Below are positions 7,106 to 39,112 of a stretch of 64,000 nt of DNA, piece after piece. Under the pieces are notes generated by a model. That model was not told the DNA's origin. It made no database searches and was given only the letters and a program-made list of their open reading frames with translations. A program made the translations under genes and the position numbers. Every line of letters starts with the position of its first letter. Within the stretch, counting starts at the first letter, position 1. The stretch is taken from positions 124,001 to 188,000 of the IMG/VR virus record IMGVR_UViG_3300027754_000034. One strand, 5' to 3'. The DNA comes from a virus.

Positions 7106-7129
7106 GACGCTGCCGCGCTGCCGATTTTC
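7106..7129 (-). promoter_or_regulatory. GC-rich 24-bp promoter-like element
   Basis: Minus strand reads GAAAATCG, 8 bases, GCAGCGTC, a diverged copy of the consensus GACAGTCG-N8-GCTGCGTC. It lies 131 bases before the start of the 228-residue gene. The leader between is GC-rich and could fold. Confidence 0.6.
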
Positions 7130-7289
7130 GCTGTCGCTTTAGAAATTTACATTTAAAACTGGTTTTTTCAATAACCCATCATTAATACTGACGGAGCCGA
7201 AACCTAAATACTGAGGGTAGGTCATCCCGAGAACCATTCGTAATCCGCCAAAGTAACTCTTTAATACTTTTACTTTCGGCATACTTGGG

Positions 7290-7361
7290 CTCCGGGGGTA
7301 CGGATCGAACGTACGACCAGTGCATTAACAGTGCACCGCTCTACCACTGAGCTACCCCGGA
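7290..7361 (-). tRNA. tRNA-Asn(GTT)
   Basis: Full cloverleaf on the minus strand. Acceptor TCCGGGG/CCCCGGA, D arm GCTCAGTGGTAGAGC, anticodon loop CTGTTAA (GTT), T arm GTACG-TTCGATC-CGTAC, discriminator G. The CCA is not encoded (CCC follows). It stands alone between two protein genes. Confidence 0.93.
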
Positions 7362-7385
7362 ATTTAATTCACCGTACCAACAAAA

Positions 7386-7421
7386 TGAAAAAGGCGACCC
7401 CGGATAACCAAGGTCGCCTTT
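7386..7421 (-). terminator. rho-independent terminator
   Basis: 10-bp stem AAAGGCGACC/GGTCGCCTTT (7390-7399 and 7412-7421) followed on the minus strand by TTTTCATTTT. It sits 22 bases after the stop of the NQ-repeat protein gene and before tRNA-Asn. Confidence 0.88.
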
Positions 7422-7443
7422 CCTATCAGTCAGTTCGAGTTAA

Positions 7444-7848
7444 TCAGAAATGATTATCCTCGTTGTGGTCGTGCGACGGGTACTGGAGGGTATCAGTCTC
7501 GTTCTCCCCGCGCACATAATCGACCTGTACGCCTCCACGGTCGGTGCGTGGAAAACGCTTCCGGTAACCACCGGAAGATCGACCATCGTTCATCTTGAAC
7601 TTCAGGTAAACGGGAGCGGTGGTCTTCCCTTCTTCTGGAATGTTGCTAATCGCAACCAGCTTGAATGGCCCGAGTTCGACCTCGAAAACCATTGCTTCTC
7701 CGTCGCGGACGGAGATGATACGTCCATCTACGGTCGACTCGTAAACCACTTCATTGTAACGCGGATTTGAACTCTGATTCTGATTCTGATTCTGATTCTG
7801 ATTGGAATACTGATTCTGATTCTGATTGGGATACTGATTCGGGTACAT
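7444..7848 (-). CDS. hypothetical protein with Asn-Gln repeat N-terminus
   Basis: 134 residues. Residues 1-27 are low-complexity Asn/Gln (NQNQNQ) encoded by repeats of gattctgattctg on the plus strand. The rest is a beta-rich domain (VDGRIISVRDGEAMVFEVELGPFKLVAI) that looks like a small OB or SH3-type barrel, ending with a His/Asp-rich tail. Own terminator downstream, so probably an abundant single-gene transcript. The region upstream to 8066 holds only an imperfect inverted repeat around 7975-8009. Confidence 0.7.
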   Translation of the reverse strand: MYPNQYPNQNQNQYSNQNQNQNQNQSSNPRYNEVVYESTVDGRIISVRDGEAMVFEVELGPFKLVAISNIPEEGKTTAPVYLKFKMNDGRSSGGYRKRFPRTDRGGVQVDYVRGENETDTLQYPSHDHNEDNHF

Positions 7849-8066
7849 TTTTTCTTCTTTCTAGTAAGGGGATTTCCCCATAATTATGGTGTCTGATTTC
7901 TGGCCTGAATTACACTGGAGTCCAGTGTTGATATAAACTTTACCTGCTTAGGAAGGTGTTCGTTTATATATGTGTCATACTCCTATAATATCACATATAT
8001 GTGAGTATGCTTGGTATAAATCCTCCGATTTCTTACACTTGAAGGACGTATCGTCCCCGATAATTT

Positions 8067-8528
8067 TCATGCTTCGTGGACTTTATTAATTAAACGAATC
8101 TTCCGGCATGCAGAAAGAAAAGAGCTTTTTGTCGTCTTCCACCACCAAGTCTTTTCTAAATAACCTTTACTCAGCATGACTTTTACCATCTCTTGATCGA
8201 GAGTATATGAATACATCTTAGATCTGTCGAATTCGTCTGGTATGATATTTAGTCCCTGTAGGATTACTTCATCCATGAAACCGGCACCGAACTTTTTAAT
8301 ACACTTATCGATATAACCAAGATGATTAACAATCACCCTCATTACTTTTTCCCTGGATGAACTCCCACTAGTAAGTTCCGCCAGGCGATCTGCGCCGATT
8401 TTATTTAGCACTTCGTTAATCTGTTGATGAATTGGTGATAAATAATCAATGCGAGATAAGAATGAAATTGCACAGGCTTCCCCTGCGCCCTTCATAAATT
8501 TGTCATTCCAATATCCACTATTTGCCAT
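8067..8528 (-). CDS. hypothetical protein
   Basis: 153 residues, mostly helical, MANSGYWNDKFMKGAGE to INKVHEA. Ends with a Trp/Lys-rich patch (EKTWWWKTTKSSFL). Divergent from the small plus-strand gene at 8554, with 25 bases between the two starts. No motif recognised. Confidence 0.65.
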   Translation of the reverse strand: MANSGYWNDKFMKGAGEACAISFLSRIDYLSPIHQQINEVLNKIGADRLAELTSGSSSREKVMRVIVNHLGYIDKCIKKFGAGFMDEVILQGLNIIPDEFDRSKMYSYTLDQEMVKVMLSKGYLEKTWWWKTTKSSFLSACRKIRLINKVHEA

Positions 8529-8553
8529 GTTATTTGCCTTGTAAAGTAATGAT

Positions 8554-8748
8554 ATGAAGTTTATGGTCCGTTATGACTTGAATGGAAACGTGAAAGAAAA
8601 TATACTGGATATTCCTGCTAATAAATATTGGAGTTCACAGAAAATTTTAAGAGTAGCCTCGGAGTCTCTTCTGCAATTAGTGGGTCATCACACTCTTCTA
8701 AGAGTGAAATCACTCAATGAGTCGGATCCAGTTGCAGCTGAATTATGA
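8554..8748 (+). CDS. hypothetical small protein
   Basis: 64 residues, MKFMVRYDLNGNVKEN. Directly preceded by GTAAAGTAATGAT, an AT-rich motif also found before other genes here (19451, 12970 on the minus strand). It converges with and overlaps the next gene by 6 bases. The sequence has a balanced protein-like composition, but no homology is recognised, so moderate confidence only. Confidence 0.5.
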   Translation: MKFMVRYDLNGNVKENILDIPANKYWSSQKILRVASESLLQLVGHHTLLRVKSLNESDPVAAEL

Positions 8749-9151: not shown

Positions 9152-9967
9152 TCAGCCACCGCTCATCCCACCAAACCACTCTGGGGTGATTTTGTGGGAC
9201 CCCTTCGGCGTCTTGATGTAGAGTCCATTGTAAAACTCCACCAAGAGCTGAGCCAAGAACAAACGGTGCTTCTTAGGTACGATAGTCGCCTTCTTCGGGT
9301 ATCTCGTCATATGAACACCATCTTGGCCCCTCAGACGGTTCCAGAAGGACCAGCTGAAATCGGCCTTCTTGATCCACATACCGTAGGACTCCGGGTTATC
9401 GGTAAGCTCGTAAAGCTCCACCGCCGAGATTGACTCTCGGAGAGCTGATGCCAGCTTCTCATATCCGAGTGCCCCTATGGCGTCGGTGCAAGCCGCATGC
9501 ACCGGGGTGCGACGATTGAGAGAAGCCGTACGGGTTAAGCCGTTGACGAGGCCACGATTCCCCTTCGGCTTATACTTCTTGACGAGGTAGTCTACAAGCT
9601 CGGGGTACTCAGCCAAAGCCATCATGGCCTCAACATCATCCTTGGGTTCCACTTCCTCCTTGTAACCCTTCTTGGAGCATATAGGGCCGATACCCCGCTC
9701 AACAGACTCCGAATCCGTGAGGGGTTGCCCACAATGGGCACATGAGGTGCAAATTCCCTCGAGCACTAGCTGGTAGCGGCTACCACCGCTGAAGTAGCTA
9801 CTCGCGACGGGGACCAGGACGGGTCCGGTCACGAGGGTCATCTGAGTCATGGGGGTAGCCTCTTCTGGCGTGGTGGTGGTGGTGCTTTCGATCGGAATTG
9901 TGTTCATGGGTACCTCATCATTAAACATTTCGTCCATCATATCAATAATGTTCTTCATTGCGCTCAT
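9152..9967 (-). CDS. DUF6011-like zinc-binding protein
   Basis: 271 residues. After a Thr/Pro-rich N-terminus (about 20-45), residues about 73-105 hold CTSCAHCGQPLTDSESV...GIGPICSKK. This is the pattern of DUF6011-type zinc ribbons common in phages (two CxxC-type pairs with a GPxC end). The C-terminal 150 residues are helical with a Trp-rich patch (DFSWSFWNRLRGQDG). Start ATG 9967 is preceded by AGGTAATACA and, 53 bases upstream, a GC-rich 24-bp element. Role unknown; nucleic-acid binding is likely for this kind of zinc ribbon. Confidence 0.7.
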   Translation of the reverse strand: MSAMKNIIDMMDEMFNDEVPMNTIPIESTTTTTPEEATPMTQMTLVTGPVLVPVASSYFSGGSRYQLVLEGICTSCAHCGQPLTDSESVERGIGPICSKKGYKEEVEPKDDVEAMMALAEYPELVDYLVKKYKPKGNRGLVNGLTRTASLNRRTPVHAACTDAIGALGYEKLASALRESISAVELYELTDNPESYGMWIKKADFSWSFWNRLRGQDGVHMTRYPKKATIVPKKHRLFLAQLLVEFYNGLYIKTPKGSHKITPEWFGGMSGG

Positions 9968-9975: not shown

Positions 9976-10146
9976 CTATTTGCTGTGTGTTGTGTGTGCG
10001 TGTCGCTCGCCCACCAGGAAGACGCAGCGCGCGCGCCGACTGTCACCATTCTCTTCAGAATGTTCCTCCATCAATTCTTGGATTTCTGCCTGGATAATAT
10101 TTAATTCTTGGACGTAATTTTTATAAAAATCGACGAGATCCTTCAT
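9976..10146 (-). CDS. small hypothetical protein whose tail lies in the promoter element
   Basis: 56 residues from ATG 10146 (MKDLVDFYKNYVQELN), one base after the stop of the upstream gene. The first 32 residues form a good helix. The last 24 (from ENGDSRRARCVFL) are encoded by the GC-rich 24-bp element and its flanks, so they are probably not under protein-level selection. A frame over another copy of the element (31325-31507) gives the same peptide. Confidence 0.5.
   Translation of the reverse strand: MKDLVDFYKNYVQELNIIQAEIQELMEEHSEENGDSRRARCVFLVGERHAHTTHSK
10021..10044 (-). promoter_or_regulatory. GC-rich 24-bp promoter-like element
   Basis: Minus strand GACAGTCG, 8 bases, GCTGCGTC, 53 bases before the DUF6011-like start. 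The flanks are shared with the copies at 31427 and 35364, including an inverted repeat ATTCTgaagAGAAT just upstream and a GT/CA-rich leader downstream. Confidence 0.7.
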
Positions 10147-10729: not shown

Positions 10730-10985
10730 TCTTTTCTTTCTTCTTTTTCATTCTAATCGCTCTAAGCTCTAATCTAGAAAGCTCTGGCGGAAATTTATCC
10801 GTTCTTGCAATATAATACATCGTCAAGAAACTCAACCTCGCAAACCACACCTTATTACTTTCATTAATTTTGTCGTAATAGTCCAGAATCATTTGACAAT
10901 CTTCTGGACTGTGATACCATAAACCAAATCGAATTTTTTCTTGGTAGAATATTGATTCTACTAGTTTTTCAACACTATGATTCAT
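10683..10985 (-). CDS. hypothetical protein
   Basis: 100 residues from ATG 10985 (MNHSVEKLVES), which overlaps the stop of the BRCT gene (ATGA). Helical, with a C-terminal Lys-rich stretch (RMKKKKEKND). Probably co-translated with the BRCT gene. No known family. Confidence 0.6.
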   Translation of the reverse strand: MNHSVEKLVESIFYQEKIRFGLWYHSPEDCQMILDYYDKINESNKVWFARLSFLTMYYIARTDKFPPELSRLELRAIRMKKKKEKNDSPSDYSEENTGCY

Positions 10986-11296
10986 GATGATCCGCAAATT
11001 AAATCGTAAAAGTCTTTCTCACTGATAGTTTTCACACCCTTTTGGATGGCTTTCTGAAATTTAGAAGCCACATTTCCAGCGGCATTTGTCCAGTCCGCAT
11101 TGGTGAGAAGCAAGTCTGTGTTCCACTTCACGCTATTATGGAATACCCCGCCGGCAAGACCGATGATGTTTACGATATCCTTCCTTGGTCGGCCAAGATG
11201 ACCCGTGATACAAATGTTCTTCCCCCTAAGAGTGTCGGAGACTTCCATGATTTCCACAATAGTCGCCATGTCGGTAAATTCATTAATTCTTGCCAT
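10982..11296 (-). CDS. stand-alone BRCT-domain protein
   Basis: 104 residues from ATG 11296 (MARINEFTD), preceded by GGAGAG seven bases before. Residues about 21-95 form one BRCT domain: LRGKNICITGHLGRPRKDI, GGVFHNSVKWNTDLLLT (the GG turn and 'TDLLL' strand), then ISEKDFYDLI. This matches the BRCT at the end of NAD-dependent DNA ligases, which binds DNA ends and partner proteins. It may serve the phage ATP-dependent ligase (15628-16725), which has no BRCT of its own; that link is inference. Confidence 0.85.
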   Translation of the reverse strand: MARINEFTDMATIVEIMEVSDTLRGKNICITGHLGRPRKDIVNIIGLAGGVFHNSVKWNTDLLLTNADWTNAAGNVASKFQKAIQKGVKTISEKDFYDLICGSS

Positions 11297-11458: not shown

Positions 11459-11482
11459 GACGCAGCGTCCTACCCGATTGTC
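11459..11482 (-). promoter_or_regulatory. GC-rich 24-bp promoter-like element
   Basis: Minus strand GACAATCG, 8 bases, CGCTGCGTC in the same 24-bp frame, 162 bases before the BRCT start. The long leader contains GGAGGAACC and a small open frame from 11412 with a hydrophobic start, discussed under rejected items. Confidence 0.6.
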
Positions 11483-14652: not shown

Positions 14653-15075
14653 TTAATTTGTATCGAGAAAAACTTCAATCAATTCAAATGGTCTAATGAG
14701 TATTTCTTTTACTAAATCTTGTATTAAACTCCATTCAATGTTGTTTACAATATGTTCGAATATTGCACAGATGTCTTCACATTGTGGGTCATCGGGGTTG
14801 AAATCTTTTATATTTAGTTCATTTTGAATACTCAGTATCGAGTATAATTCGACAAGTTTTTCTATTCCTTCCTTAGTGATTATTCCTTCTAGGTCTTCGG
14901 AAAAATCATAAAGACGCGCGGAACTGCTTCGATAAAACTCACGTTCTTTTTCTTCTAATGCTTCCTCCGCTTTCTCTTTTGACTTGTAAAGAGTATGTGG
15001 TTTACTATATCCCGCCCTCGTGTAAGTTTGATCATCATAGTCATATTCAGATTCAATTACTCCATAAACTATCAT
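14653..15075 (-). CDS. hypothetical acidic protein
   Basis: 140 residues. Begins MIVYGVIESEYDYDD and contains a charged helix 'KSKEKAEEALEEKEREFYRSS', then a long acidic helical part. The start resembles small phage proteins that open with 'VYxVxxSEY'. Its first base coincides with the last base of the upstream DUF6915-like gene, suggesting coupling. Confidence 0.6.
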   Translation of the reverse strand: MIVYGVIESEYDYDDQTYTRAGYSKPHTLYKSKEKAEEALEEKEREFYRSSSARLYDFSEDLEGIITKEGIEKLVELYSILSIQNELNIKDFNPDDPQCEDICAIFEHIVNNIEWSLIQDLVKEILIRPFELIEVFLDTN

Positions 15076-15452
15076 TAGTCAACAAGCTCCACATGTGTTT
15101 CACTCATGGTGATTTTTAATGGCACGCCTTTGAAGGTCTTGGATCCCATCCAAGGTTCAACTGGCATACCCGACATACACTTCTCAAGTGTCGGGATATG
15201 ACCTAGGTCATCTACCACATGCTGTTCAAGGACGTCCCTGACAGAAACATCCTTGCCGTCCGAATTTTTAAAATATACTCCATGGATCTGCTCGGCCAGC
15301 ATGATCCCCCAGGCATTGTGGAGAATCATCCGATGGCGCATGTCCGGAACGTAACCTTTGGTAGAATCCATCCAGTTGTGGAGTGGAATATAGTCATCGA
15401 CCTTCCCCCCAAATTTACGAACTGAGATCTTGGCATGAATGAGTGGTTTCAT
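15075..15452 (-). CDS. DUF6915-like protein
   Basis: 125 residues, MKPLIHAKISVRKFGG...DYIPLHNWMDSTKGY...MRHRMILHNAWGIMLAEQIHG...VRDVLEQHVVDDLG. This string of motifs fits the DUF6915 family of small phage and bacterial proteins with conserved HNWMDSTK and RHRxxLHN, function unknown; the assignment is from memory of the pattern. Expressed from a 126-base leader with the GC-rich element at 15579. Confidence 0.65.
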   Translation of the reverse strand: MKPLIHAKISVRKFGGKVDDYIPLHNWMDSTKGYVPDMRHRMILHNAWGIMLAEQIHGVYFKNSDGKDVSVRDVLEQHVVDDLGHIPTLEKCMSGMPVEPWMGSKTFKGVPLKITMSETHVELVD

Positions 15453-15578: not shown

Positions 15579-15602
15579 GACGCAGCGCGCGCACCGACTG
15601 TC
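15579..15602 (-). promoter_or_regulatory. GC-rich 24-bp promoter-like element
   Basis: Minus strand GACAGTCG, 8 bases, GCTGCGTC, 126 bases before the DUF6915-like start and 26 bases after the ligase stop. The upstream ATTCTGAAGAAAAC is a diverged form of the inverted repeat seen with other copies. Confidence 0.7.
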
Positions 15603-15627: not shown

Positions 15628-16725
15628 TCATTCGTAGTTTCGTTCCCCAACGAAGGCAGGAAATCTTGGGATACCATCCTTCGTAGTTTCCTGAAATCGA
15701 AACGTAATCATTGCACCGACGATCGGCGGAGAACGCCGATTATTATCAGTCAGTCCGGACCCGATTTCAAACCGGGTTCCTGCAGCCAGGATAGCTTTCT
15801 TCCCTCCAGCCTGGAGTGTGGTCGGCTGATTAATAATGCACTCCAGCCCCCCGGTCATTCCTTTATATTTTCCTTTTCCCGGAAAGTGACCTGTGACTTG
15901 GGCTTCAGTATCAAAGAAAGTCTTCACTTTTAGTAAAGAACCGGATCGCCCGATCTCGTAGTGGGACCCGGGCATGCGTGCCATAACACCTTCCCCGCCC
16001 AGCGTTTCAATATCTGCCAGGTATTTCCGCAAATGTTCATTCCCCTCGCATTCATGGCTCGGTAGCATCTGAACGAAATCCGGGAATGATAACGAGTGAG
16101 TTCGAAGAACAGACATTCGGGTTTCGAACGTCCCATCGACCTTCGGGGCGTCGAACACCTGAAATTGAATTCGCTTCCACCTGTCATCCGGAGTCATTGT
16201 CCGAACGATCGAAATGGTTTCCTGGAACATTCCCCGTCCACATGTTAGTTCCCCGTCGAGCGGAATCTCTGGCATTTGGTCCAGAAACCATTGCGGGGCG
16301 TTGAACACATTCGACCTCTTCGTTACCGCATTCTCTCGACTCCAGAACTTCTTACCATCCCATAGAGCCCGAACTCCATCCAACTTTTCCGAGAGCCACC
16401 AACCGGTCAGGTCTTGTGTGTTATCCCATGAGTGTGCCAATAAACAGTTTCCCTTGCTGGAACTGAGTGCAGTTGCTGTGACTGAACTCTTCAGGGGTGC
16501 ACTTTCCTGAAGCAGGACACCAAGACGGGTGTCCTCAAAGGCAAGGCCGTTTTCGACCTTGAGATGTTTACAAGTTCTTTTATCGGGACTTGACTGGCCC
16601 TGGTTTCTCCAGGCCGGGCAATCACACGAAAAATGACCCCCATGGTTTTTAAGTTTATAAGGATTTTTTCCAGATCCTTGGAACAACACTATAGTTCCAA
16701 GACCCCCATCAATCAATTTACCCAT
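15628..16725 (-). CDS. ATP-dependent DNA ligase with N-terminal SWIM zinc finger
   Basis: 365 residues. Residues about 34-54 (CDCPAW ... CKHL) form a SWIM-type zinc finger. The nucleotidyltransferase follows: motif I SEKLDGVRA with AMP-acceptor Lys at about 114, motif III LDGEL at 156-160, motif IV GEGVMAR near 245, motif V LLKVK near 263, then an OB-fold end (GSGLTDNNRRSPPIVGAMITFRF). It seals nicks in duplex DNA through a ligase-adenylate. The SWIM-ligase arrangement occurs in large phages and some bacteria. A GC-rich element lies 96 bases upstream; RBS AGGAAA. Confidence 0.93.
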   Translation of the reverse strand: MGKLIDGGLGTIVLFQGSGKNPYKLKNHGGHFSCDCPAWRNQGQSSPDKRTCKHLKVENGLAFEDTRLGVLLQESAPLKSSVTATALSSSKGNCLLAHSWDNTQDLTGWWLSEKLDGVRALWDGKKFWSRENAVTKRSNVFNAPQWFLDQMPEIPLDGELTCGRGMFQETISIVRTMTPDDRWKRIQFQVFDAPKVDGTFETRMSVLRTHSLSFPDFVQMLPSHECEGNEHLRKYLADIETLGGEGVMARMPGSHYEIGRSGSLLKVKTFFDTEAQVTGHFPGKGKYKGMTGGLECIINQPTTLQAGGKKAILAAGTRFEIGSGLTDNNRRSPPIVGAMITFRFQETTKDGIPRFPAFVGERNYE

Positions 16726-16821: not shown

Positions 16822-16845
16822 GACGCGCTGATCGCGCCGATTGTC
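16822..16845 (-). promoter_or_regulatory. GC-rich 24-bp promoter-like element
   Basis: Minus strand GACAATCG, 8 bases, AGCGCGTC, 96 bases before the ligase start. The leader downstream is very GC-rich (GCGGCGCTCGGCGCGGCGGGC) and may fold. Confidence 0.6.
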
Positions 16846-16874: not shown

Positions 16875-17687
16875 CTAATTCAGGTGTACGTCCGCGATTT
16901 GCAGCCTTCTCAACAAATCACTAAAATCAACACAGTGCCCTTCCATAAAGCTGCCCGCTGACAGTTCAGCCAGTAATTCTTTTTCCACAAGCTCTTTCCA
17001 ATGAGGGCTCGGATATTCGTGTTCCGAAACCGCCTTGACTAGCAGTTCGGTCCAATCGGAGAAAGTAGCAATTCCATGTTTATTTCTTTCGAAATGTTCA
17101 TCTCTTTTGAAGATCATGTGGATTCGTTCTTCAAAAGAGATAACCACTTTCGTCTTCTTGCGAACCAAATCCCCAAGATCTTTCAGGATCGCCCCGGTCA
17201 GGATCGCCCCGGTCAGATTCGCCCCGGTCAGGTCCGCCCCGCTCAGGTTTGCCCCGCGTAGATTTGTCAGCATCAGGTTCGCGTTGGTCAGGATCGCCCC
17301 GGTCAGGTTCGCGTTGACCATATACGCCCCGCTCAGGTCCGCCCCGCTCATGTCCGCATTGGTCAGGTCCGCCCCCCGCAGGGCCGCATGGTTCAGGGAC
17401 GCATGGCTCAGATTCGCCATACTCAAGTCCGCACTATTCAGGTTCGCCCCGAACAGGTTCGCCAAACTCAGGTTCGCCCCGAACAGGTTCGCCAAACTCA
17501 GGTCCGCATCAGTCAACATTGCCCCAGTCAGGTTCGCACCACATAAGTTCATCCCGCTCAGGTTCGCATCGGTCAGGTACGCATTGCGCAGGTCCGCCTT
17601 GGCCAGGTCCGCCTGCTTTTCCCCCTCCTGACGGCTGAGCCGGATGGCGTGTTGCACTAAAACTGCTTCGAGTTCTGCCTTTTTCAT
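16875..17687 (-). CDS. pentapeptide-repeat protein with shared C-terminal domain
   Basis: 270 residues. Residues about 25-170 are some 29 A(D/N)LxX pentapeptides, forming a right-handed quadrilateral beta-helix; such folds mimic DNA and in Qnr-type proteins bind gyrase. Residues about 180-270 are a non-repeat domain (NKHGIATFSDWTELL ... VDFSDLLRRLQIADV) clearly homologous to the C-terminus of the pentapeptide protein at 53281-54174 (DWSDLL ... IDFSDILKRLQISDV). An N-terminal helix (EAVLVQHAIRLSRQEGEKQ) precedes the repeats. Binding partner unknown; gyrase modulation is only a possibility. Confidence 0.85.
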   Translation of the reverse strand: MKKAELEAVLVQHAIRLSRQEGEKQADLAKADLRNAYLTDANLSGMNLCGANLTGAMLTDADLSLANLFGANLSLANLFGANLNSADLSMANLSHASLNHAALRGADLTNADMSGADLSGAYMVNANLTGAILTNANLMLTNLRGANLSGADLTGANLTGAILTGAILKDLGDLVRKKTKVVISFEERIHMIFKRDEHFERNKHGIATFSDWTELLVKAVSEHEYPSPHWKELVEKELLAELSAGSFMEGHCVDFSDLLRRLQIADVHLN

Positions 17688-17859: not shown

Positions 17860-19341
17860 TTACTGCCGGGTAGGATTGAGCTGAACTACCCGACCGAAGT
17901 TCGGCTTAAAATGCCGCTTATTCGTGATAATCCACAGGCAATCCGCTCCCCTCGGCATCAGATTAATCGGGACTTCACCACAATCTCCATCGGTCAGAAT
18001 GATCACTAGATCAATCTTGTCACCAAATTTCTGCTTCGGCAGATCCTGGAAGAACTCGGTAAATACCGTGCCTCCACGACCCACCACCTGCGTACGCTCC
18101 AAAGAAGTCTTGCCGCTAACCCGAGTCGCTTTATCCCAATAGGGGACCGCATCACATGGCACGATCCAACCTTCAGCGACATCCGCCACCAATTGAAGCT
18201 CCTTCACCCCGTTCGCAATATCGTCATCCGACATTGACCCGGAGGTGTCCATCAAACAAACCCACCTAGGGAGGAAGTCGTGCTTCTTGGGTGTGTAGAG
18301 CTGATGCTTTGGGACGAATTTCCCATTCTCGTCCTTCGAGTAGATGTAGCTCGGACGACGGCGGAATCGCTTCCAGTCATTAATGTTTCCGGCATTCGCC
18401 TTCTTCTGTGCAATAGCCATTCGGATGATATCTCGTGCCGAGAGTTCTGGCTTCTTGAGTCGACCCAATGCCTGTTCGATACCCTCCGGTACCTCTCCAC
18501 GACCCATGGCACGGGTCTGGTCAGCAGCCCTCATCATATCCCCAAAGGTCTCCTCCTTGGTTTGGGAGGGAGGCATATGAGAATCGAGAGACCCCGGTCC
18601 ATCACAACAACCGGGCTTAGCCCCGCACTTCTGGCAACATTCTGGTCCCCAGGGCTGCGGGATTGTGCTCTGACCAGTCTTCGGGTCAAGAGACATGGCA
18701 CCGCAACCTCCTGCGTGCTCCTTGCAACGACGAGGGGAGTTCATTTGAGCCTTGCGGATCTGCTCGTAGATGGACTCCGGGCTTCGCCCGTAGACCGTGA
18801 CGTCTGCAAAGCATCCGGGTTGGGGGAGGTCATCCCGCGTTCCACCAATCCACTCCAAGTACATTTGGAGCGAAATCGGAGTTCCGAGCGGACCTGTCCA
18901 GATCTTCGGGAATTTCTGGTTCCGACCGGACTTCTCGTGCTCGGTCTCGATCGTGGCGTTCACCACGTAATCGACCGAGATGTTCCAGCATTGTCCGTCC
19001 AGACCACCGGCCCGTTCGGGGGAACAGTGGAAGAAGAGTACATGGTAGCTCTCGTGAGACATGACGGTCGTCACCTCTTCGGGAGACAGGGATTCCAGGA
19101 ACTCGGGGTTCCAATAGTATTCCTTACCGTTCGTGGCTGCTGTCTTGATTTCTTGTCCCCCGAGCTGCTTCGCCAGCTTATGGGGTTTAGGACCACTGAG
19201 GGCGAACAGGAAGGGATTTCCCCCTCCTGACGGCTGCCGGAACATCCTGGTTAAACATGAATTGATTTTATCCTGACAGTCCTGCAACTGTCGGGGGCTT
19301 GAGGCCACATTGTACGGATCAGCCAGTCGTGTGTATTGCAT
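17860..19341 (-). CDS. DUF2201-type metallopeptidase-like and VWA protein
   Basis: 493 residues. The N-terminal half has a zincin-like HESYH at 96-100 (HExxH). A Cys-rich insert lies near 205-260 (RRCKEHAGGCG; CCQKCGAKPGCC). The C-terminal 130 residues are a VWA-like domain with MIDAS motif DTSGS near 366-370 and 'IILTDGDCGE' later. This is the DUF2201 architecture, usually encoded beside a MoxR-type AAA ATPase, here at 21493-22593. Such pairs act as chaperone or metal-insertase-like complexes. An endolysin cassette on the other strand separates the two genes. RBS GGAGG before ATG 19341. Confidence 0.88.
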   Translation of the reverse strand: MQYTRLADPYNVASSPRQLQDCQDKINSCLTRMFRQPSGGGNPFLFALSGPKPHKLAKQLGGQEIKTAATNGKEYYWNPEFLESLSPEEVTTVMSHESYHVLFFHCSPERAGGLDGQCWNISVDYVVNATIETEHEKSGRNQKFPKIWTGPLGTPISLQMYLEWIGGTRDDLPQPGCFADVTVYGRSPESIYEQIRKAQMNSPRRCKEHAGGCGAMSLDPKTGQSTIPQPWGPECCQKCGAKPGCCDGPGSLDSHMPPSQTKEETFGDMMRAADQTRAMGRGEVPEGIEQALGRLKKPELSARDIIRMAIAQKKANAGNINDWKRFRRRPSYIYSKDENGKFVPKHQLYTPKKHDFLPRWVCLMDTSGSMSDDDIANGVKELQLVADVAEGWIVPCDAVPYWDKATRVSGKTSLERTQVVGRGGTVFTEFFQDLPKQKFGDKIDLVIILTDGDCGEVPINLMPRGADCLWIITNKRHFKPNFGRVVQLNPTRQ

Positions 19342-19386: not shown

Positions 19387-19410
19387 GACGCCGCGACACG
19401 CACGACTGTC
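19387..19410 (-). promoter_or_regulatory. GC-rich 24-bp promoter-like element
   Basis: Minus strand GACAGTCG, 8 bases, GCGGCGTC, 45 bases before the VWA start; followed by the leader ending GGAGGTAATATCAA-ATG, shared in form with the leader at 21330. Confidence 0.65.
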
Positions 19411-20340: not shown

Positions 20341-20929
20341 AAAAGCGTCAACTGCTTCCACAATTCCGCCCGAATCTACTCTTTTTAGTCAGCACATTCA
20401 GTCTCGTAATTTCACGAAAGCTAACCGTAAGAAGGTAGACTTGGTGGTTCTCCATAGCACAGAAAACCCGATAAAGGCCGGAGTCGCGAAGAGCGTCGCT
20501 TTGTGGTTCAGCGGCGAGTCTTCACCTCGTGCGTCCGCTCATTACATCGTCGGCCCCGACGCCACGTTCCGGTGCGTCCGGGAGGACGACGTGGCGTACG
20601 CCGCACCAGGAGCGAACAACAACGGCGTGCAGATAGAGCAAGTCGGGCAAGCTTTTAAAACTCAGTGGCTCAAAGACGGGACTGGAGTCACCGATGGTTA
20701 CCAGGTTTTTAAAAATTCAGCTAAACTCGTCCATGATATTTGCCTTCGTTGGGACATTCCGATGGAGAAAGTGGATGCTATAGGTTTATTAGCCAAAAAA
20801 CGCGGCATTACCACTCACGCAGCAGTCAGCGAGGCATTTAAAAAATCAGATCATGTGGACCCAGGTTGCAAAGGCGATATTCGTTGGCCTTGGGCAGAAT
20901 ATCTTGACCTAGTAAATCAATCGTCCTGA
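20189..20929 (+). CDS. N-acetylmuramoyl-L-alanine amidase endolysin
   Basis: 246 residues. N-terminal PG_binding_1 module (residues 6-50), a Ser/Thr/Pro linker, then an amidase_2 domain: 'LVVLHSTE' gives the first zinc His, 'SAHYIVGPDATFRCVREDDVAYAAPGANNNGVQIEQ' the central strands, and 'GITTHAAVSEAFKKSDHVDPG' the remaining zinc ligands. It cleaves the MurNAc-L-Ala bond of peptidoglycan. Its ATG overlaps the upstream stop (ATGA). It overlaps the convergent minus-strand gene by 13 bases. No signal peptide, so release would need a holin, not recognised here. Confidence 0.92.
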   Translation: MTIVAPKRTKLGDKGPDVISWQKYLVSAGFNPGTPDGIHGKKTEDAGLAWEKASTASTIPPESTLFSQHIQSRNFTKANRKKVDLVVLHSTENPIKAGVAKSVALWFSGESSPRASAHYIVGPDATFRCVREDDVAYAAPGANNNGVQIEQVGQAFKTQWLKDGTGVTDGYQVFKNSAKLVHDICLRWDIPMEKVDAIGLLAKKRGITTHAAVSEAFKKSDHVDPGCKGDIRWPWAEYLDLVNQSS

Positions 20930-21330
20930 ATACTGCTTATTGTCTTTAACTTGGCTTTGATGGATTTTATCTCCTTTAAATTTTCAGTCCACCAAGTACA
21001 AGTTTTCAGTCGTCTTCCCAAATCACGAGCGATTCTCGGCTTACTATATAACTCAAAATCACCGACACCCACCACGTTATAGCAGAATTCACCGAATCCA
21101 TGGCTCTTTGTGAATTCGGTGAATTCTGCTTCTAAATTCCCGTACTCGAGTAAGATAATCCCCAAGTGTTCATCGTGAAATGATCCAGCCAATAGCCCTA
21201 AAGGAATTTTTCGACATATTAAATCCAGATTATCCAAAATCCCGGATTCTTTATACCAATATCCCACCATGGTGACTACCAAGGTTTCCAAGTCAATTTT
21301 AATGGTAATGAAATTACGATTACTTATCAT
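20917..21330 (-). CDS. hypothetical protein
   Basis: 137 residues from ATG 21330 (MISNRNFITIKIDLETL), chosen for GAGGTAATATC directly before it. Alpha/beta composition. A perfect 17-bp inverted repeat (21081-21097 with 21114-21130) lies inside the gene, encoding EAEFTEF on one arm and GFGEFCY on the other. Preceded by a short variant of the GC-rich element. Function unknown. Confidence 0.65.
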   Translation of the reverse strand: MISNRNFITIKIDLETLVVTMVGYWYKESGILDNLDLICRKIPLGLLAGSFHDEHLGIILLEYGNLEAEFTEFTKSHGFGEFCYNVVGVGDFELYSKPRIARDLGRRLKTCTWWTENLKEIKSIKAKLKTISSIQDD

Positions 21331-21351: not shown

Positions 21352-21366
21352 GACGCCGCGACTGTC
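21352..21366 (-). promoter_or_regulatory. short variant of the GC-rich element (15 bp)
   Basis: Minus strand GACAGTCGCGGCGTC: both conserved boxes are present but 9 central bases are missing. Followed by CTTTCTTGTGCGAGGTAATATC-ATG at only 21 bases. If the element is a promoter this copy should be weak or dead, making it a natural test case. Confidence 0.5.
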
Positions 21367-21435
21367 GATATTTCCTTTGATATGTGGTCATTATAAAACT
21401 ATATATGATATATTTGCAAAATATATGAAATACGT

Positions 21436-22654: not shown

Positions 22655-22678
22655 GACGCAGCGACAGCGACAGTTGTC
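22655..22678 (-). promoter_or_regulatory. GC-rich 24-bp promoter-like element
   Basis: Minus strand GACAACTG, 8 bases, GCTGCGTC, 61 bases before the MoxR start. The leader contains GGCGC/GCGCC-type complementary pieces. Confidence 0.65.
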
Positions 22679-23436: not shown

Positions 23437-23460
23437 GACGCAGCGACGCGGGCAATTGTC
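23437..23460 (-). promoter_or_regulatory. GC-rich 24-bp promoter-like element
   Basis: Minus strand GACAATTG, 8 bases, GCTGCGTC, only 22 bases before the start codon and about 11 before GAAGGAG. This short distance limits where a transcript could begin. Confidence 0.7.
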
Positions 23461-23490
23461 AGTATTTCGTTTCGATGCATTTACTACTAT

Positions 23491-25590: not shown

Positions 25591-26166
25591 TCACGAATTC
25601 ATGACTCGCTCAGAAATGATAAGGTTCATAGCTGAAGCGAAAACTTCGTCATTAAGTTCAGACTTAGATAATATCATCTTTTTAAACTTCGTCCACCAAA
25701 AAATAGCATCCCCGAAACGGCTATTGGAAATATTATATTCCATCCAACCATTAAAATCCCTTACGGTGTGAATCTCAGGATATTCAAGAGACACGTATGA
25801 AGATGGATATTTAAGAGATCTCAGATTATTCTCTTGAATTAACTTGTCAAGCTCTTGAAGACGACTAAAGATCATCTTCGTCAGAACACTGTTAGGGACC
25901 GGTGCCTTCTTTTTCGGCTCCCACTCCTCAATCAATTTCTTGGTTGCCTCGAAGTCCATCCTAAAAAATAAAATACAATTTGGTATTGTCACCATGGTGA
26001 CATCTTCCAAGGTCAGGAAGTTCTGCTCTTGCAGAACTCTGATGTGAGACAAGTTCCCGCCTTGGAGGATGGAATTGGCCAACTTTCGAAGCTGACCCAT
26101 ACCTCCAAAGATGGAATCTGCTTTGGTTTGCGCAATACTATCGAGTTTATAATCGTGGTAAAACAT
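25591..26166 (-). CDS. hypothetical protein
   Basis: 191 residues. MFYHDYKLDSIAQTK start with AGGAGAGT before it, then a mostly helical protein with 'FNGWMEYNISNSRFGDAIFWWTKFKKMIL'. Controlled by the GC-rich element 61 bases upstream, whose leader contains self-complementary GGCG/CGCC stretches. Not recognised. Confidence 0.7.
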   Translation of the reverse strand: MFYHDYKLDSIAQTKADSIFGGMGQLRKLANSILQGGNLSHIRVLQEQNFLTLEDVTMVTIPNCILFFRMDFEATKKLIEEWEPKKKAPVPNSVLTKMIFSRLQELDKLIQENNLRSLKYPSSYVSLEYPEIHTVRDFNGWMEYNISNSRFGDAIFWWTKFKKMILSKSELNDEVFASAMNLIISERVMNS

Positions 26167-26227: not shown

Positions 26228-26251
26228 GACGCAGCGGCAGCGGCAGCTGTC
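26228..26251 (-). promoter_or_regulatory. GC-rich 24-bp promoter-like element
   Basis: Minus strand GACAGCTG, 8 bases, GCTGCGTC, 61 bases before the start at 26166. It overlaps the last two bases of the upstream gene. Confidence 0.7.
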
Positions 26252-28080: not shown

Positions 28081-28104
28081 GACGCAGCGACCGGGCCGAT
28101 TTTC
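28081..28104 (-). promoter_or_regulatory. GC-rich 24-bp element before the tRNA cluster
   Basis: Minus strand GAAAATCG, 8 bases, GCTGCGTC, 114 bases before tRNA-Leu and with no protein start downstream until after the tRNAs. This placement argues for a transcription signal over a translation signal. Confidence 0.6.
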
Positions 28105-28816: not shown

Positions 28817-29269
28817 CTAACTGCTCATGATGTCAGATAACACTTGCGATCCACAATTTAAGTCAACACTGCTCTCTTCGCAAGCCTCAACCAGAGTTTG
28901 ATCTCGGCGTACGTTCACCCATTTAAGACATCTTCGGCACCTAAATTGGTATGCTTCATCAGAATAGATAGATTCTCTTGCAGATGCCCAATCATGGTTA
29001 TTAAAATTTCCTTTTGCCGGGTTGTACTTCTTTCTCTTCTCTAAACTTACATCAACACCTTCGGATTCAAGCAGAGAATCAAGCATGAAGGAAAATTGGT
29101 CTTTTTCAACCGTATCTTCCTCAGGGTCTACCGGCTTTTCAGCGTCGTATTCATCTTCTGCAATTTCTGATTGTACTTGTACATGAGTACCCTGATTAAG
29201 AATCAGATCTTCTTTCTTGGCTTCCGGTTTGCTAATGCCGAATAGATCATCCATTTCTTTGCTAAACAT
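28817..29269 (-). CDS. hypothetical acidic protein with a Cys pair
   Basis: 150 residues. The first 90 are acidic and probably flexible (EIAEDEYDAEKPVDPEED). The C-terminal part has 'QFRCRRCLKWVNV' and two later cysteines (VEACEESSVDLNCGS), a possible one-zinc ribbon. Expressed from the element 26 bases upstream with GGAGAGAG in the leader. Confidence 0.65.
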   Translation of the reverse strand: MFSKEMDDLFGISKPEAKKEDLILNQGTHVQVQSEIAEDEYDAEKPVDPEEDTVEKDQFSFMLDSLLESEGVDVSLEKRKKYNPAKGNFNNHDWASARESIYSDEAYQFRCRRCLKWVNVRRDQTLVEACEESSVDLNCGSQVLSDIMSS

Positions 29270-29295: not shown

Positions 29296-29319
29296 GACGC
29301 GGAAGAATCGCAGACTGTC
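29296..29319 (-). promoter_or_regulatory. GC-rich 24-bp promoter-like element (diverged)
   Basis: Minus strand GACAGTCT, 8 bases, TCCGCGTC, 26 bases before the start at 29269. The least GC-rich copy, but boxes and spacing are kept. Confidence 0.6.
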
Positions 29320-29492: not shown

Positions 29493-29498
29493 TTCCGG

Positions 29499-29571
29499 CA
29501 CCCCGTACGGGACTTGAACCCATTTACATGATTTGAAAGGACGCTGGCCTGACCGGGTAGTCTAACGGGGT
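29499..29571 (-). tRNA. degenerate tRNA-like sequence (possibly Glu TTC)
   Basis: Perfect 7-bp acceptor ACCCCGT/ACGGGGT, a D-arm-like GAC...GTC, and a good T arm (ATGGG-TTCAAGT-CCCGT). The expected anticodon loop would be CTTTCAA (TTC, Glu), but I cannot pair the flanking anticodon stem (GCGTC against ATCAT). So it is either a decayed tRNA or a non-standard one. GTAAAGTAA lies just upstream. Confidence 0.45.
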
Positions 29572-31049: not shown

Positions 31050-31394
31050 TTAGGCCTCCCCGATCGTTCCGAAAGTCTCAGCCGCCACCCGTGGTCCTTC
31101 ACCACGAACAATCACTGACATGTAATTGCCTGGCACTCCAAACATGTCGAAGAATGACTGGGTTAGAGTACCTCTTGCCATCAACGGAATATGCTTAGCA
31201 TCCTTGAGGGCTGCAATTTGTTCGTCCGAGATACGCGATCCAGATCGGATCTCGGTAGCTCGCGACATCTGGTGAATCACCAAGATGAGGTTTTCGAATT
31301 CCTCATCACTGCAGACAACGCTCGTCATGGTCCAAGGACCCGGATCTCCATTTGGGGAAGTTTCATGAAAGACATAATCGTGTAGTGTTGCCAT
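31050..31394 (-). CDS. hypothetical protein
   Basis: 114 residues, MATLHDYVFHETSPNGDPGPW. Alpha/beta composition with 'SRISDEQIAALKDAKHIPL'. Lies 5 bases upstream of tilS and is probably cotranscribed with it from the GC-rich element at 31427. Function unknown; a role with TilS is only guilt by association. Confidence 0.7.
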   Translation of the reverse strand: MATLHDYVFHETSPNGDPGPWTMTSVVCSDEEFENLILVIHQMSRATEIRSGSRISDEQIAALKDAKHIPLMARGTLTQSFFDMFGVPGNYMSVIVRGEGPRVAAETFGTIGEA

Positions 31395-31426: not shown

Positions 31427-31450
31427 GACGCAGCGCGCGCGCCGACTGTC
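31427..31450 (-). promoter_or_regulatory. GC-rich 24-bp promoter-like element
   Basis: Minus strand GACAGTCG, 8 bases, GCTGCGTC, 32 bases before the start at 31394. Identical over some 45 bases to the copy at 10021, including the ATTCTgaagAGAAT inverted repeat. Confidence 0.75.
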
Positions 31451-31484: not shown

Positions 31485-31829
31485 TCAGAGTTTGACCCAA
31501 TGCGCAAACTTTTCTGCGGGAAGATTGTCTGGGATACTTGTGTCAGCTATCACCACCATTTTGTCAGGATCCCACATAATTTGTCCAATGGCCTCCTGAA
31601 CAACGGAATCTGCCATACAGGCCCCCGTAACTATTATGAAATCTCCCGGATTGTAACTCGACCAGAATGAATTCAAAATAGAGTCGTCCAGGATTTCAAT
31701 ATCCAGAATGCGAGGCTCCTTTCCCTTTTTCCAAGCCTCCTCCTTGGCCATCATTTCTGCAGCATTCTGAGATACTGCCGTTAGCAGGATCGGCTTTCCG
31801 AAAATAATTTGATCACTAAGCGTCGTCAT
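31485..31829 (-). CDS. hypothetical protein
   Basis: 114 residues from ATG 31829 (MTTLSDQIIFGKPILLTAVSQ), which has GGAGG six bases upstream. The pattern 'DFIIVTGACMADSVVQEAIGQIMWDPDKMVVIADTS' resembles the second half of a P-loop or sensor region but lacks a Walker A motif. The GC-rich element is only 18 bases upstream, leaving almost no leader. Function unknown. Confidence 0.65.
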   Translation of the reverse strand: MTTLSDQIIFGKPILLTAVSQNAAEMMAKEEAWKKGKEPRILDIEILDDSILNSFWSSYNPGDFIIVTGACMADSVVQEAIGQIMWDPDKMVVIADTSIPDNLPAEKFAHWVKL

Positions 31830-31847
31830 GCGGACCTCCACCGGACA

Positions 31848-31871
31848 GACGCAGCGGCAGCGGCGACTGTC
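31848..31871 (-). promoter_or_regulatory. GC-rich 24-bp promoter-like element (closest to a start)
   Basis: Minus strand GACAGTCG, 8 bases, GCTGCGTC, followed by TGTCCGGTGGAGGTCCGC-ATG. The GGAGG starts 9 bases after the element, so a transcript carrying it must start within about 8 bases of the second box, just where a -10 box would put it. Confidence 0.75.
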
Positions 31872-33268: not shown

Positions 33269-33292
33269 GACGCAGCGAGTGCGCCGACTGTC
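33269..33292 (-). promoter_or_regulatory. GC-rich 24-bp promoter-like element
   Basis: Minus strand GACAGTCG, 8 bases, GCTGCGTC, 29 bases before ATG 33239. Nearly identical over 48 bases to the copy at 34018, including an upstream CGAAaaaTTCG inverted repeat. Confidence 0.7.
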
Positions 33293-34017: not shown

Positions 34018-34041
34018 GACGCAGCGAATGCGCCGACTGTC
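34018..34041 (-). promoter_or_regulatory. GC-rich 24-bp promoter-like element
   Basis: Minus strand GACAGTCG, 8 bases, GCTGCGTC, 38 bases before the start at 33979. Twin of the copy at 33269. Confidence 0.72.
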
Positions 34042-35107: not shown

Positions 35108-35326
35108 TTAAAATCTCATCCAGTTCTCGGGTTCACCTGAAGAAATGGCTTTTTTGGCCTCTTCCTCGGTTTCGAAGTAGATAGACTCCCGAGAGTAGGG
35201 TCCACAGTAACAAGCTGTTCCGAGGTACCACCCCGCGCCGGAACGGAGCGGTTGGAGGACCAGCTTAATATTACAACTGCCGCAGGTATCAGCGGCTCCA
35301 GACAGTATAGTTTCGCCTGCAATCAT
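35108..35326 (-). CDS. small Cys-containing protein
   Basis: 72 residues from ATG 35326 (MIAGETILSGAADTCGSCNIKL), preceded by GGAAGAACACAA. An upstream in-frame extension to 35392 would translate the GC-rich element and is rejected. 'DTCGSC' and 'CYCGPYS' could form one zinc site. Function unknown. Confidence 0.65.
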   Translation of the reverse strand: MIAGETILSGAADTCGSCNIKLVLQPLRSGAGWYLGTACYCGPYSRESIYFETEEEAKKAISSGEPENWMRF

Positions 35327-35363: not shown

Positions 35364-35387
35364 GACGCTGCGCGCGCGCCGACTGTC
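35364..35387 (-). promoter_or_regulatory. GC-rich 24-bp promoter-like element
   Basis: Minus strand GACAGTCG, 8 bases, GCAGCGTC, 37 bases before ATG 35326. Shares the ATTCTgaagAGAAT upstream inverted repeat with the copies at 10021 and 31427. Confidence 0.72.
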
Positions 35388-37747: not shown

Positions 37748-37832
37748 GTGCGTGTGTGTTTGTTGTGTGGTGCTATGGGGATCGGTCTCGCTACCCATCT
37801 CCATTCAAGTTTGGCTCGCTTTGATCTCAAAT

Positions 37833-37875
37833 CTCGATCCTAACCCAGGGGTCTTCCGCCTGGGTTAGGATCGAG
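37833..37875. terminator. 17-bp hairpin overlapping a gene end
   Basis: CTCGATCCTAACCCAGG/CCTGGGTTAGGATCGAG with a 9-base loop. The stop codon of the 79-residue frame on the minus strand lies inside one arm. Confidence 0.7.
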
Positions 37876-38079
37876 CAAAATATATCCTAGGGGTTCAAGC
37901 GAATCCTGCCACCCATCCGGCGACTTCTCGGCCTTGGGCAGACATGACGATCCCATTGATTCGAATGAGTGCCAATGGGTTCCGATGTAAAAGTTCTCCC
38001 CGTCCACCGTCAGAGCAAGATGGAGTGCTTCTCCTCGAGCCAGTGTATCCCCCCTAGGAATGCTTCGAATTTCTTTTAT
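37840..38079 (-). CDS. 79-residue protein with apparent non-canonical (ATA) start
   Basis: The frame reads IKEIRSIPRGDTLARGEALHL...VDGENFYIGTHWHSFESMG...KSPDGWQDSLEPLGYILLDP and looks clearly protein-coding. It has no usable ATG, GTG or TTG at its 5' end, and a stop lies 18 bases further up. GGAGGAACT lies directly before ATA AAA GAA, so ATA at 38079 is the best start candidate. A 5' truncation is the alternative. Function unknown. Confidence 0.45.
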   Translation of the reverse strand: MKEIRSIPRGDTLARGEALHLALTVDGENFYIGTHWHSFESMGSSCLPKAEKSPDGWQDSLEPLGYILLDPNPGGRPLG

Positions 38080-38090
38080 AGTTCCTCCAA

Positions 38091-38127
38091 ATGTATGGCA
38101 TAAATGTTAGAAATCTATGCCATACAT
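38091..38127. repeat. ATGGCAT-type hairpin, copy 3
   Basis: 12-bp stem ATGTATGGCATA/TATGCCATACAT with loop aatgttagaaatc, just upstream of the ATA-start gene. Loop sequence matches copy 2 in 11 of 13 positions. Confidence 0.7.
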
Positions 38128-38140
38128 GATGTGTGTTTGT

Positions 38141-38222
38141 AGGGTGGTGCTTTGTTATTTAAATATCAAGTAACCGGATATTTAAATAACAGAGCACCAC
38201 CACCCTTTCGGATGGTGGTGCT
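38141..38222. promoter_or_regulatory. two mutually exclusive hairpins sharing one arm
   Basis: Arm 38141-38167 (AGGGTGGTGCT then TTGTTATTTAAATATC) pairs with 38177-38206. The last part of that second arm (AGCACCACCACCC, 38193-38205) can instead pair with GGATGGTGGTGCT (38210-38222). The two structures cannot form together, as in an attenuator. Confidence 0.55.
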
Positions 38223-38233
38223 CAGGTTCGCCC

Positions 38234-38273
38234 GGTTCAGATGGGCCGGTCTTGCGACCGGCCCATCTGAACC
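38234..38273 (-). terminator. 18-bp GC-rich hairpin
   Basis: GGTTCAGATGGGCCGGTC/GACCGGCCCATCTGAACC, loop TTGC, 6 bases after the stop at 38280 on the minus strand. No T run but very stable. Confidence 0.75.
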
Positions 38274-38279
38274 TCCTCC

Positions 38280-38840
38280 TCAGATCTCGGGGGAGATCAC
38301 CCGGGCCTGGTCTCGAAGCGCGGGATCAGCTGCCATCAGCTGGTCTCGAACCACGACCAAGGTGGCCTTGCTGTAACGTGTGCCCACCAATGTTGCGTAA
38401 CCAAGCATCCCATGCTTGGTGGTTGCAAACCGGATCCCATCGGCCTTGAGCTGCCCGAGTGGCTTGCCATCCTTGTCCGTTGGGACCTTTAGATCTCCCT
38501 CCCAGGCCTTCTCGAAGGCCTGGGCCGGTTCCTCACCAGCGGTGGTGAGTGCCTCGAAGGAGGCCATGATTTGGGAGGCGATGCCAGTGCTCGCGAGAGC
38601 GTGGCTCGACATGAACCCCCTCCGGTTCTTACTTGTGGTCTCTTTCGAGGCCACCTCGTCTTGTGTCTGGAGGAGGAAGGTCAAGAGGAAGACGCAGCGC
38701 GCGGCGGCATCGTCGTTCGAGACTCTGTGCCGCAATTCTTCGACCCCGATGAAGGGCCACTGGCGGAAGCCAGGGGAAGGGACCTTGATCTGGACGAGGT
38801 TGTTGATGAGCATGGAAATGGTCTTGATGTTGTTGTTCAC
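38280..38840 (-). CDS. hypothetical protein behind a four-copy promoter-like array
   Basis: 186 residues from a GTG at 38840 with GGAG seven bases before. Reads VNNNIKTISMLINNLVQIKVP, 'GFRQWPFIGVEELRHRV', 'TSKNRRGFMSSHALASTG' and a helical C-terminal domain with KHGMLGYATLVGTRYSKATL. 'NxRGFMSSxA' resembles a conserved motif in small phage proteins, which supports the longer form over an internal ATG at 38612 (GGAGGGGG before it). A copy-like 24-mer (38691-38714) lies within the coding sequence. GC-rich; likely very highly transcribed. Confidence 0.65.
   Translation of the reverse strand: MNNNIKTISMLINNLVQIKVPSPGFRQWPFIGVEELRHRVSNDDAAARCVFLLTFLLQTQDEVASKETTSKNRRGFMSSHALASTGIASQIMASFEALTTAGEEPAQAFEKAWEGDLKVPTDKDGKPLGQLKADGIRFATTKHGMLGYATLVGTRYSKATLVVVRDQLMAADPALRDQARVISPEI
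38691..38714 (-). promoter_or_regulatory. element-like 24-mer inside a coding sequence
   Basis: Minus strand GACGATGC, 8 bases, GCTGCGTC in the right spacing, with CTTCC after it, but the first box is poor and it lies in frame within the 186-residue gene (DDAAARCVFL). It could drive an internal start at 38612 or be chance. Confidence 0.3.
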
Positions 38841-38910
38841 GGTCGGCTCCAATGCAGGTGAAGGTGAAATGTCCGAAAGCGGCACCTGCAAGCCGCTCTC
38901 GCATCAGGAG

Positions 38911-39112
38911 GACGCAGCGCCCGGTGCAGCTGTCGCTGCGACCGGATCACCGCTCCCTCACACAAGGAGGACGCAGCGCCCGGTGCAGCTGTCGCTGCGA
39001 CCGGATCACCGCTCCCTCACACAAGGAGGACGCAGCGCCCGGGGCAGCTGTCGCTGCGACCGGATCACCCCGTCTCCCTCACAAGGAGGACGCAGCGCCC
39101 GGGGCAGCTGTC
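38911..39112 (-). promoter_or_regulatory. four tandem copies of the GC-rich element
   Basis: 24-mers at 38911-38934, 38970-38993, 39029-39052 and 39089-39112, spaced 59, 59 and 60 bases, each GACAGCTG-N8-GCTGCGTC on the minus strand. Each is followed by CTCCTTGTG and a GGTGATCCGGTCGCAGC spacer. The last box lies 70 bases before the GTG at 38840. The spacers are identical, not unique, so this is not a CRISPR. Confidence 0.75.

Follow-up and report, generated by a model that had tools for sequence, protein, structure and literature searches.

A probable phage promoter class with two conserved boxes and several spellings in a clade of uncultured jumbo phages

The window is a stretch of 64,000 nucleotides (nt) of viral DNA, positions 124,001–188,000 of the 257,205-bp IMG/VR record IMGVR_UViG_3300027754_000034, here called G000. 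Between window positions 7106 and 39112 it contains a repeated two-box element. An earlier note on this DNA listed 22 copies, all on the minus strand, and proposed a phage promoter family with boxes resembling -35 and -10 regions. The copies are given below with one additional candidate. Conservation refers to the homologous gene in G001, a related 307,777-bp record.

7106–7129, minus strand: element copy with GAAAATCG as first box, 132 nt upstream of the gene starting at 6974; conserved in G001
8045–8068, minus strand: weak extra intergenic candidate, GAAAATTATCGGGGACGATACGTC; 19.4 bits by matrix, null maximum 9.0
10021–10044, minus strand: element copy upstream of gene 9152–9967; conserved in G001
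11459–11482, minus strand: element copy upstream of 10982–11296; conserved in G001
15579–15602, minus strand: element copy upstream of 15075–15452; conserved in G001
16822–16845, minus strand: element copy with more than three mismatches, upstream of the DNA ligase gene 15628–16725; conserved in G001
19387–19410, minus strand: element copy upstream of the HNH gene 17860–19341; conserved in G001
21352–21375, minus strand: "short" copy, GGAA-N16-CGTC, 22 nt upstream of 20917–21330
22655–22678, minus strand: element copy 62 nt upstream of the ATPase gene 21493–22593; element at 63 nt in the G001 homologue
23437–23460, minus strand: element copy upstream of 22758–23414 (start as chosen here); absent at the G001 homologue
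26228–26251, minus strand: element copy upstream of 25591–26166; conserved in G001
28081–28104, minus strand: element copy 115 nt upstream of tRNA-Leu
29296–29319, minus strand: element copy upstream of 28817–29269; conserved in G001
31427–31450, minus strand: element copy upstream of 31050–31394; absent at the G001 homologue
31848–31871, minus strand: element copy 19 nt upstream of the start codon of 31485–31829; conserved in G001
33269–33292, minus strand: element copy, from pattern match and sequence reading
34018–34041, minus strand: element copy, from pattern match and sequence reading
35364–35387, minus strand: element copy upstream of 35108–35326; conserved in G001
38691–38714, minus strand: degenerate copy with more than three mismatches, within gene 38280–38840
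38911–39112, minus strand: four tandem copies (38911, 38970, 39029 and 39089) with a period of 59–60 bp, upstream of 38280–38840

The copy at 23437 falls inside its gene if the start is placed at 23480. The G001 homologue of 38280–38840 likewise has an element upstream. Immediately upstream of the four tandem copies is a perfect palindrome, ctccatccccctatatatatagggggatggag (39119–39150), and a similar one lies at about 39178–39200.

All 22 listed copies are present on reading the sequence, and 21 of them measure 24 bases from box to box. The pattern GACAGTCG-N8-GCTGCGTC, with up to three mismatches, has 20 matches in the window compared to 0.14 expected from shuffles. Nineteen of these are minus-strand copies; the twentieth, at 31844, is on the plus strand and overlaps a copy at an offset. 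The listed copies at 16822, 21352 and 38691 exceed three mismatches and are recognised by reading the sequence. In the whole record, the same 20 matches are found, all within 131,106–163,112 (32 kb), and the reversed control has 0. The copies are confined to this one block and are not scattered over the rest of the genome. A profile of 21 copies (21352 excluded) extends the element to about 35 bases, with conservation beyond the second box to about +33. The profile reads (C/T)GACARYYG, a GC-rich spacer, GCTGCGTC and then a weaker TtCCtggTGcg. The exact G000 pattern was searched against 2.9 million viral contigs and matched 12 stretches with one match apiece and without clustering, so no close carrier was found. 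Sigma70-like sites in the 21–39.6 kb portion of the window number 35, compared to 29.5 in shuffles (standard deviation 5.1).

Three details of the earlier note stand in part. The copy at 21352, described as short, is present but can also be read as a normal 24-mer. Most copies lie 18–162 bases before a start or tRNA, as described, but the two upstream tandem copies are at 189 and 249 nt and the copy at 11459 is at 163 by the gene calls used here. No plus-strand copy is accepted, in line with the note, although there are seven plus-strand matrix matches in addition to the offset overlap at 31844. In total the matrix has 31 matches in the window: the 22 listed copies (18.6–53.9 bits), the weak candidate at 8045 and eight more. 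The seven plus-strand matches (9.7–26.8 bits) are all within called open reading frames (ORFs), three of them in the tandem array, and a further minus-strand match at 20576 (9.9 bits) is within a plus-strand gene. These eight are regarded as composition artefacts of local GC richness. Gene calls come from a rough, simple gene caller, which places 13 of the 22 copies between genes. Of the others, five are in doubtful ORFs of 42–59 amino acids, three tandem copies are in a doubtful plus-strand ORF of 65 amino acids, and the last, at 38691, is within a gene of 186 amino acids.

The ATPase gene behind copy 22655 has a 78%-identical homologue in G001. The G000 spelling has two weak matches in G001 and 0 in G002, another relative. 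The repeats around the G001 ATPase gene read CGGAARTCG-N8-GCnCGTC followed by TTGGTGGGCG, and the G001 spelling of the element is CGGAARTCGG-N-GCnCGTY. With up to three mismatches, this spelling has 57 matches in the whole G001 record compared to 11 in the reversed control. Fifty-three of the 57 are within 13.9–79.4 kb, on both strands. In 72 kb of G001, 82% of it coding, there are 51 matrix sites, and 47 of these lie between genes. All 47 intergenic sites point at the next gene on the same strand, and 42 of them are within 200 nt of it.

The element is retained gene by gene. Homologous pairs were taken as best BLASTP hits with E up to 1e-5, and some are short or weak; an element was counted when it lies within 260 nt upstream of a gene. 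Among 25 pairs, the element is kept in G001 for 12 of the 14 genes that have it in G000, and none of the 11 G000 genes without an element has one in G001 (Fisher p=2e-5). Gene order differs between the two phages, and in several pairs the two genes have opposite orientations with respect to neighbouring genes, so position and orientation of the element change along with its gene. Judged from the two sequences, travelling of this kind is what is expected of a promoter. The description of the class as one-armed and private to this phage is not borne out. In G001 copies occur on either strand and go with their genes, G000 appears one-armed because its block consists mostly of minus-strand genes, and relatives have the element in other spellings.

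Gapped words upstream of genes are clear in three phages when used alone: GACA-N16-CGTC in 10 regions of G000 (null maximum 4), GGAA-N15-CGTC in 21 regions of G001 (null 5) and GTAA-N16-TGTA in nine regions of G002 (null 6). This test is not clear in G004 or G005. A de novo search by expectation-maximisation, in which the motif was not supplied, was applied to stretches of relatives chosen by gene order, and the best log-likelihood was compared to shuffled nulls (two each for G000, G001, G002, G004 and G005, one for G006). The search re-finds the known motifs in the G000 block (261, nulls 107–112) and in G001 (701, nulls 121–122). In the remaining four, the motifs are CGTAAATc...TGTA in G002 (168, nulls 105–117), CGtAAGTTc...tGTA in G004 (193, nulls 112–113), CG.AaaTc.g...cG.GTAtc in G005 (182, nulls 124–126) and CGgAAgTc...GCGTAc in G006 (281, null 116). 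No such motif emerges from two stretches of G000 beyond the block (112, nulls 99–107; 94, nulls 81–95). A reverse-strand run is unusable as a control because the same sites are found; in G000 84–124 kb it gives a low-complexity motif at 125 (nulls 99–107). Exact GTAAAT-N14-TGTA occurs 14 times in G002, 17 times in G004 and eight times in G010, compared to 1, 1 and 2 in controls. In G000 it occurs six times (control 1), always outside the block.

The two boxes are held at a fixed spacing, as in extracytoplasmic function (ECF)-type promoters. The gap from first to second box is 16 in G000, G002 and G004 and 15 in G001, and in the consensus sequences of G005 and G006 it likewise counts 16. For the degenerate pattern CGN[AC]ARTY-N(gap)-[CT]GT[AC], the peak is at a gap of 13 in G000 (8 matches, mean of other gaps 0.5), G002 (20, 1.3), G004 (12, 1.9), G005 (7, 1.7) and G006 (8, 2.0); in G001 it is at 12 (16, 1.4). 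There is no peak in G007, G008, G000 outside the block or LR745208.1, a 485-kb uncultured phage. Used as controls, 50 kb each of CcrColossus, Atu_ph07 and phiKZ yield 2, 1 and 1 matches at a gap of 13 without a clear peak, and these phages have different motifs. Of 83 matches to the degenerate pattern at modal gaps, 59 are intergenic, where 7–18% of the sequence is noncoding. The second boxes (GCGTC, CGTY, CGTA and TGTA) are of the CGT type seen in ECF -10 regions. Some boxes in G002, G004, G006 and G010 finish 9–10 nt upstream of the start codon. This bounds the start site indirectly and suggests leaderless messages at some genes of these four phages.

The proposal of the earlier note that this is a phage promoter family with -35/-10-like boxes and an ECF-like, GTC-type second box is strongly supported by the comparative evidence. 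The probability that the element represents a promoter class is put at roughly 0.93. The first box (cGACARTCGg in G000) would act as the -35 region and GCGTC as the -10 region. Transcription would begin about 6–9 nt past the -10 region, at or near a conserved GTGG, and the element would drive single genes and short operons in the 32-kb block. Relatives would use the same architecture with drifted boxes. The host core RNA polymerase, joined by an ECF-like sigma factor of about 210 amino acids encoded by the phage, may read the element, and the different spellings are probably each read by their own version of a phage sigma factor. In its workings the element is like an ECF promoter; it is not filed under any named ECF group.

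Phage sigma factors with private promoters are already known from Salmonella phage 7-11 and phiEco32, as passages of one source describe (PMC8948821). Phage 7-11 is the nearest experimental precedent in these passages. Its late promoters, GTAAtg-(16)-aCTA, are read by the phage sigma factor SaPh711_gp47. Like the element, they are bipartite, in that case for a phage-encoded sigma factor on the host core, and their spellings differ among related phages (PMC8948821). The 16-nt gap is shared with G000, G002 and G004–G006, and the GTAA first box with G002 and G004. Unlike the eight promoters of phage 7-11 with second box aCTA, the element has (C/T)GT(A/C) as second box, more copies and a GC-rich spelling, and belongs to a different and uncultured jumbo-phage clade. 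The middle and late promoters of phiEco32, read by the phage sigma factor gp36, have tAATGTAtA with a start 6–8 nt downstream (PMC8948821). This box contains the TGTA found as second box in G002 and G004. It is a single box with no -35 region, unlike the element. Among bacterial ECF promoters, passages on ECF41 give TGTCACA-n16-CGTC, with a CGTC-type -10 region and fixed spacing as in the element (PMC3426412). The Streptomyces sigmaE sites, in the passages available, share these two features and a GGAA-containing -35 region with the element family; G001 and G006 have 15 and 16 between GGAA and CGTC, compared to 18 in one counted sigmaE site (PMC6767563). According to a comparative overview, sigma factors and gp33-like proteins are encoded by some of the jumbo phages that lack an RNA polymerase of their own. 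Its relevant passages contain no promoter motif, and "ECF" appears 0 times in its main text (PMC7824862). No report of the motif is among the open-access papers listed by the searches. A GC-rich spelling in dozens of copies, with several dialects in an uncultured jumbo-phage clade, appears undescribed as far as these searches reach.

Three proteins with sigma domains are encoded by G000: a sigma factor of 328 amino acids with regions 2 and 4, a region-2 protein of 210 amino acids and a protein of 271 amino acids with two region-4 domains. The last is at 206,102–206,917 of the record, and double matches are also present in G001, G002, G004, G005 and G006. Two of the candidate readers are as follows.

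G000 record, about 83.6–84.2 kb (outside the window): ECF-like sigma factor of 210 amino acids
Window 59553–60851, plus strand: protein of 432 amino acids, C-terminally sigma region-4-like; not favoured as reader

The 210-amino-acid protein is slightly favoured as the reader of the element. It has relatives at 15 IMG/VR loci, of which 11 were aligned and are 39–57% identical. Sigma region 2 (PF04542) scores 26.0 bits in the G000 protein and 34.1 in that of G002, with a cut-off of 24. A -10 region of the CGT type fits an ECF-like region 2. The structural model has a predicted local distance difference test (pLDDT) score of 81. Residues 19–111 align with sigmaE region 2 on the -10 strand (Z 7.1), and residues 138–209 align with the sigma-4 domain of the ECF sigma factor CnrH (Z 7.0; SigW, Z 6.0). 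Chain F of the gp79-dependent complex 9m7y is also among the fold matches (E 0.31, Z 6.1). The match of the model to ECF sigma domains is suggestive only. The profile has no sequence match in the PDB, and among genome contigs it matched 19 stretches, 0 of them confirmed, with no bacterial relative. In the phage collection, only LR745208.1 matched this protein and the tandem region-4 protein. Its distant homologue matches over residues 32–107 only, which is region 2, and its motif, found in 25 of 72 upstream regions, keeps the CGTA box and has a different first box. In this single comparison, the pattern is as expected if the 210-amino-acid protein reads the boxes. The motif of LR745208.1 is TTTCnCTAAAAAGTnncCyTCCCGTACCGATA, located in positions 1–50,000 (approximately 25 of 72 upstream regions); in five of six strict matches the start codon is 28–33 nt past CCGTAC and in one it is 114 nt past.

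The protein at 59553, with which the earlier note had suggested in vitro transcription, is conserved in four phages. Its sigma region-4 match is below threshold (18.2 bits, cut-off 24.1), and its model (pLDDT 51.5) is of low confidence and too poor to judge the protein by. The 210-amino-acid protein is the better candidate. At somewhat less than even odds, the promoters could be read instead by the full-length sigma factor, the tandem region-4 protein, the 59553 protein or an alternative sigma factor of the host. Alternative sigma-type genes are present in G000, G001 and G002, region-4 proteins occur in most other records too, and a sigma factor of 234 amino acids is located within the element block of G001. 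However, the full-length sigma factors of G000, G001, G002 and G004 retain an SRERIRQ(I/L)E helix, which we take to be the reader of sigma70-type -35 regions, and the -35 spelling here differs. G000 and G002 differ in their -35 boxes, yet their tandem region-4 proteins share 58% identity.

As a whole, a promoter class of the jumbo-phage clade with the 210-amino-acid protein as putative sigma reader is likely the best explanation. Several observations weigh against it. ECF promoters usually have AAC in the -35 region; the element, unlike those of bacteria, lacks it and has the consensus cG(A/G/T)(A/C)ARTC. The G000 element genes 22758–23414 and 31050–31394 have G001 homologues without an element. 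In the stretches examined, G007, G008, G010 and G011, all of which encode the 210-amino-acid sigma factor, have no such motif, and the search in G009 is ambiguous. Across 11 further records, the G001 spelling has no excess over the reversed control, and the G000 spelling with a looser first box has no clear excess, with small excesses in G003 (12, control 4) and G008 (12, control 5). The gap peaks are partly circular because the degenerate pattern was built from the same phages, and the partly independent G009, G010 and G011 are weak (4, 3 and 4 matches). The Pfam region-2 score of the G001 protein, 22.1 bits, is below the cut-off of 24, and Pfam gives no region 4 in the 210-amino-acid protein. 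No structural Z score reaches 8, and Foldseek gives 0.12 as its best E-value. In addition, G000, G001 and G002 also encode the region 2 and 4 sigma factor, the tandem region-4 protein and the 59553 family.

A reading of the sites as mobile regulatory cassettes, or as RNA elements of 5' leaders, spreading along with genes is very improbable. PeSL mobile cassettes consist of a promoter and a regular stem-loop. Longer flanks are common to copies 10021, 15579, 31427 and 35364 and to copies 33269 and 34018, and many G001 leaders are able to form a hairpin. The hairpin signal is weak in both G001 (mean z -0.67 in 39 long leaders, upstream control 0.05) and G000 (mean z -0.63 in 19 leaders, control -0.38), and a 5' hairpin was rejected as a conserved feature for this reason. 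Conservation is centred on the two boxes, and Rfam matches nothing but tRNAs in the window. Least probable of all are operators of a phage regulator: asymmetric sites in a single orientation relative to transcription fit this, and mycobacteriophage stoperators are a precedent in the part of the source available (PMC9283540), but those are bound by an immunity repressor and differ in site architecture. Also against operators are the constant spacing of the two boxes, their change of spelling from one relative to the next, the CGT-type second box and sites directly upstream of start codons, down to 9 nt.

Other features of the window lie outside this question. A PurZ-like adenylosuccinate synthetase gene (56493–57710; phrog_1211, E 5.6e-60) hints at possible diaminopurine DNA. 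An ORF of 562 amino acids (40497–42185) matches just part of DNA polymerase III alpha, and one of 270 amino acids (16875–17687) has several partial matches to unknown phage families. ARAGORN calls a tRNA-SeC with anticodon tca at 29497–29571, where the Rfam tRNA score is marginal (30.5, cut-off 29).

On comparative grounds, the element is a predicted ECF-sigma-like promoter class of a jumbo-phage clade, neither private to G000 nor inherently one-stranded. In uncultured jumbo phages, a promoter code that can be read would give operon boundaries and a regulon for more than 100 genes without a cultured host. It would also name a testable sigma factor and offer orthogonal sigma-promoter pairs, and with several spellings in one clade, it becomes directly testable how a sigma factor co-evolves with dozens of its promoters. 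Tentatively, at just short of even odds, the clade has one dedicated ECF-like sigma factor, and the promoter code of this factor has diverged into five spellings or more while its architecture stayed nearly constant and the element was retained gene by gene. If this is true, each phage would have a private transcription language for its accessory-gene block. Genes acquired from a relative would be silent until they gain the local spelling, and the sigma factor and its promoters would have to co-evolve.

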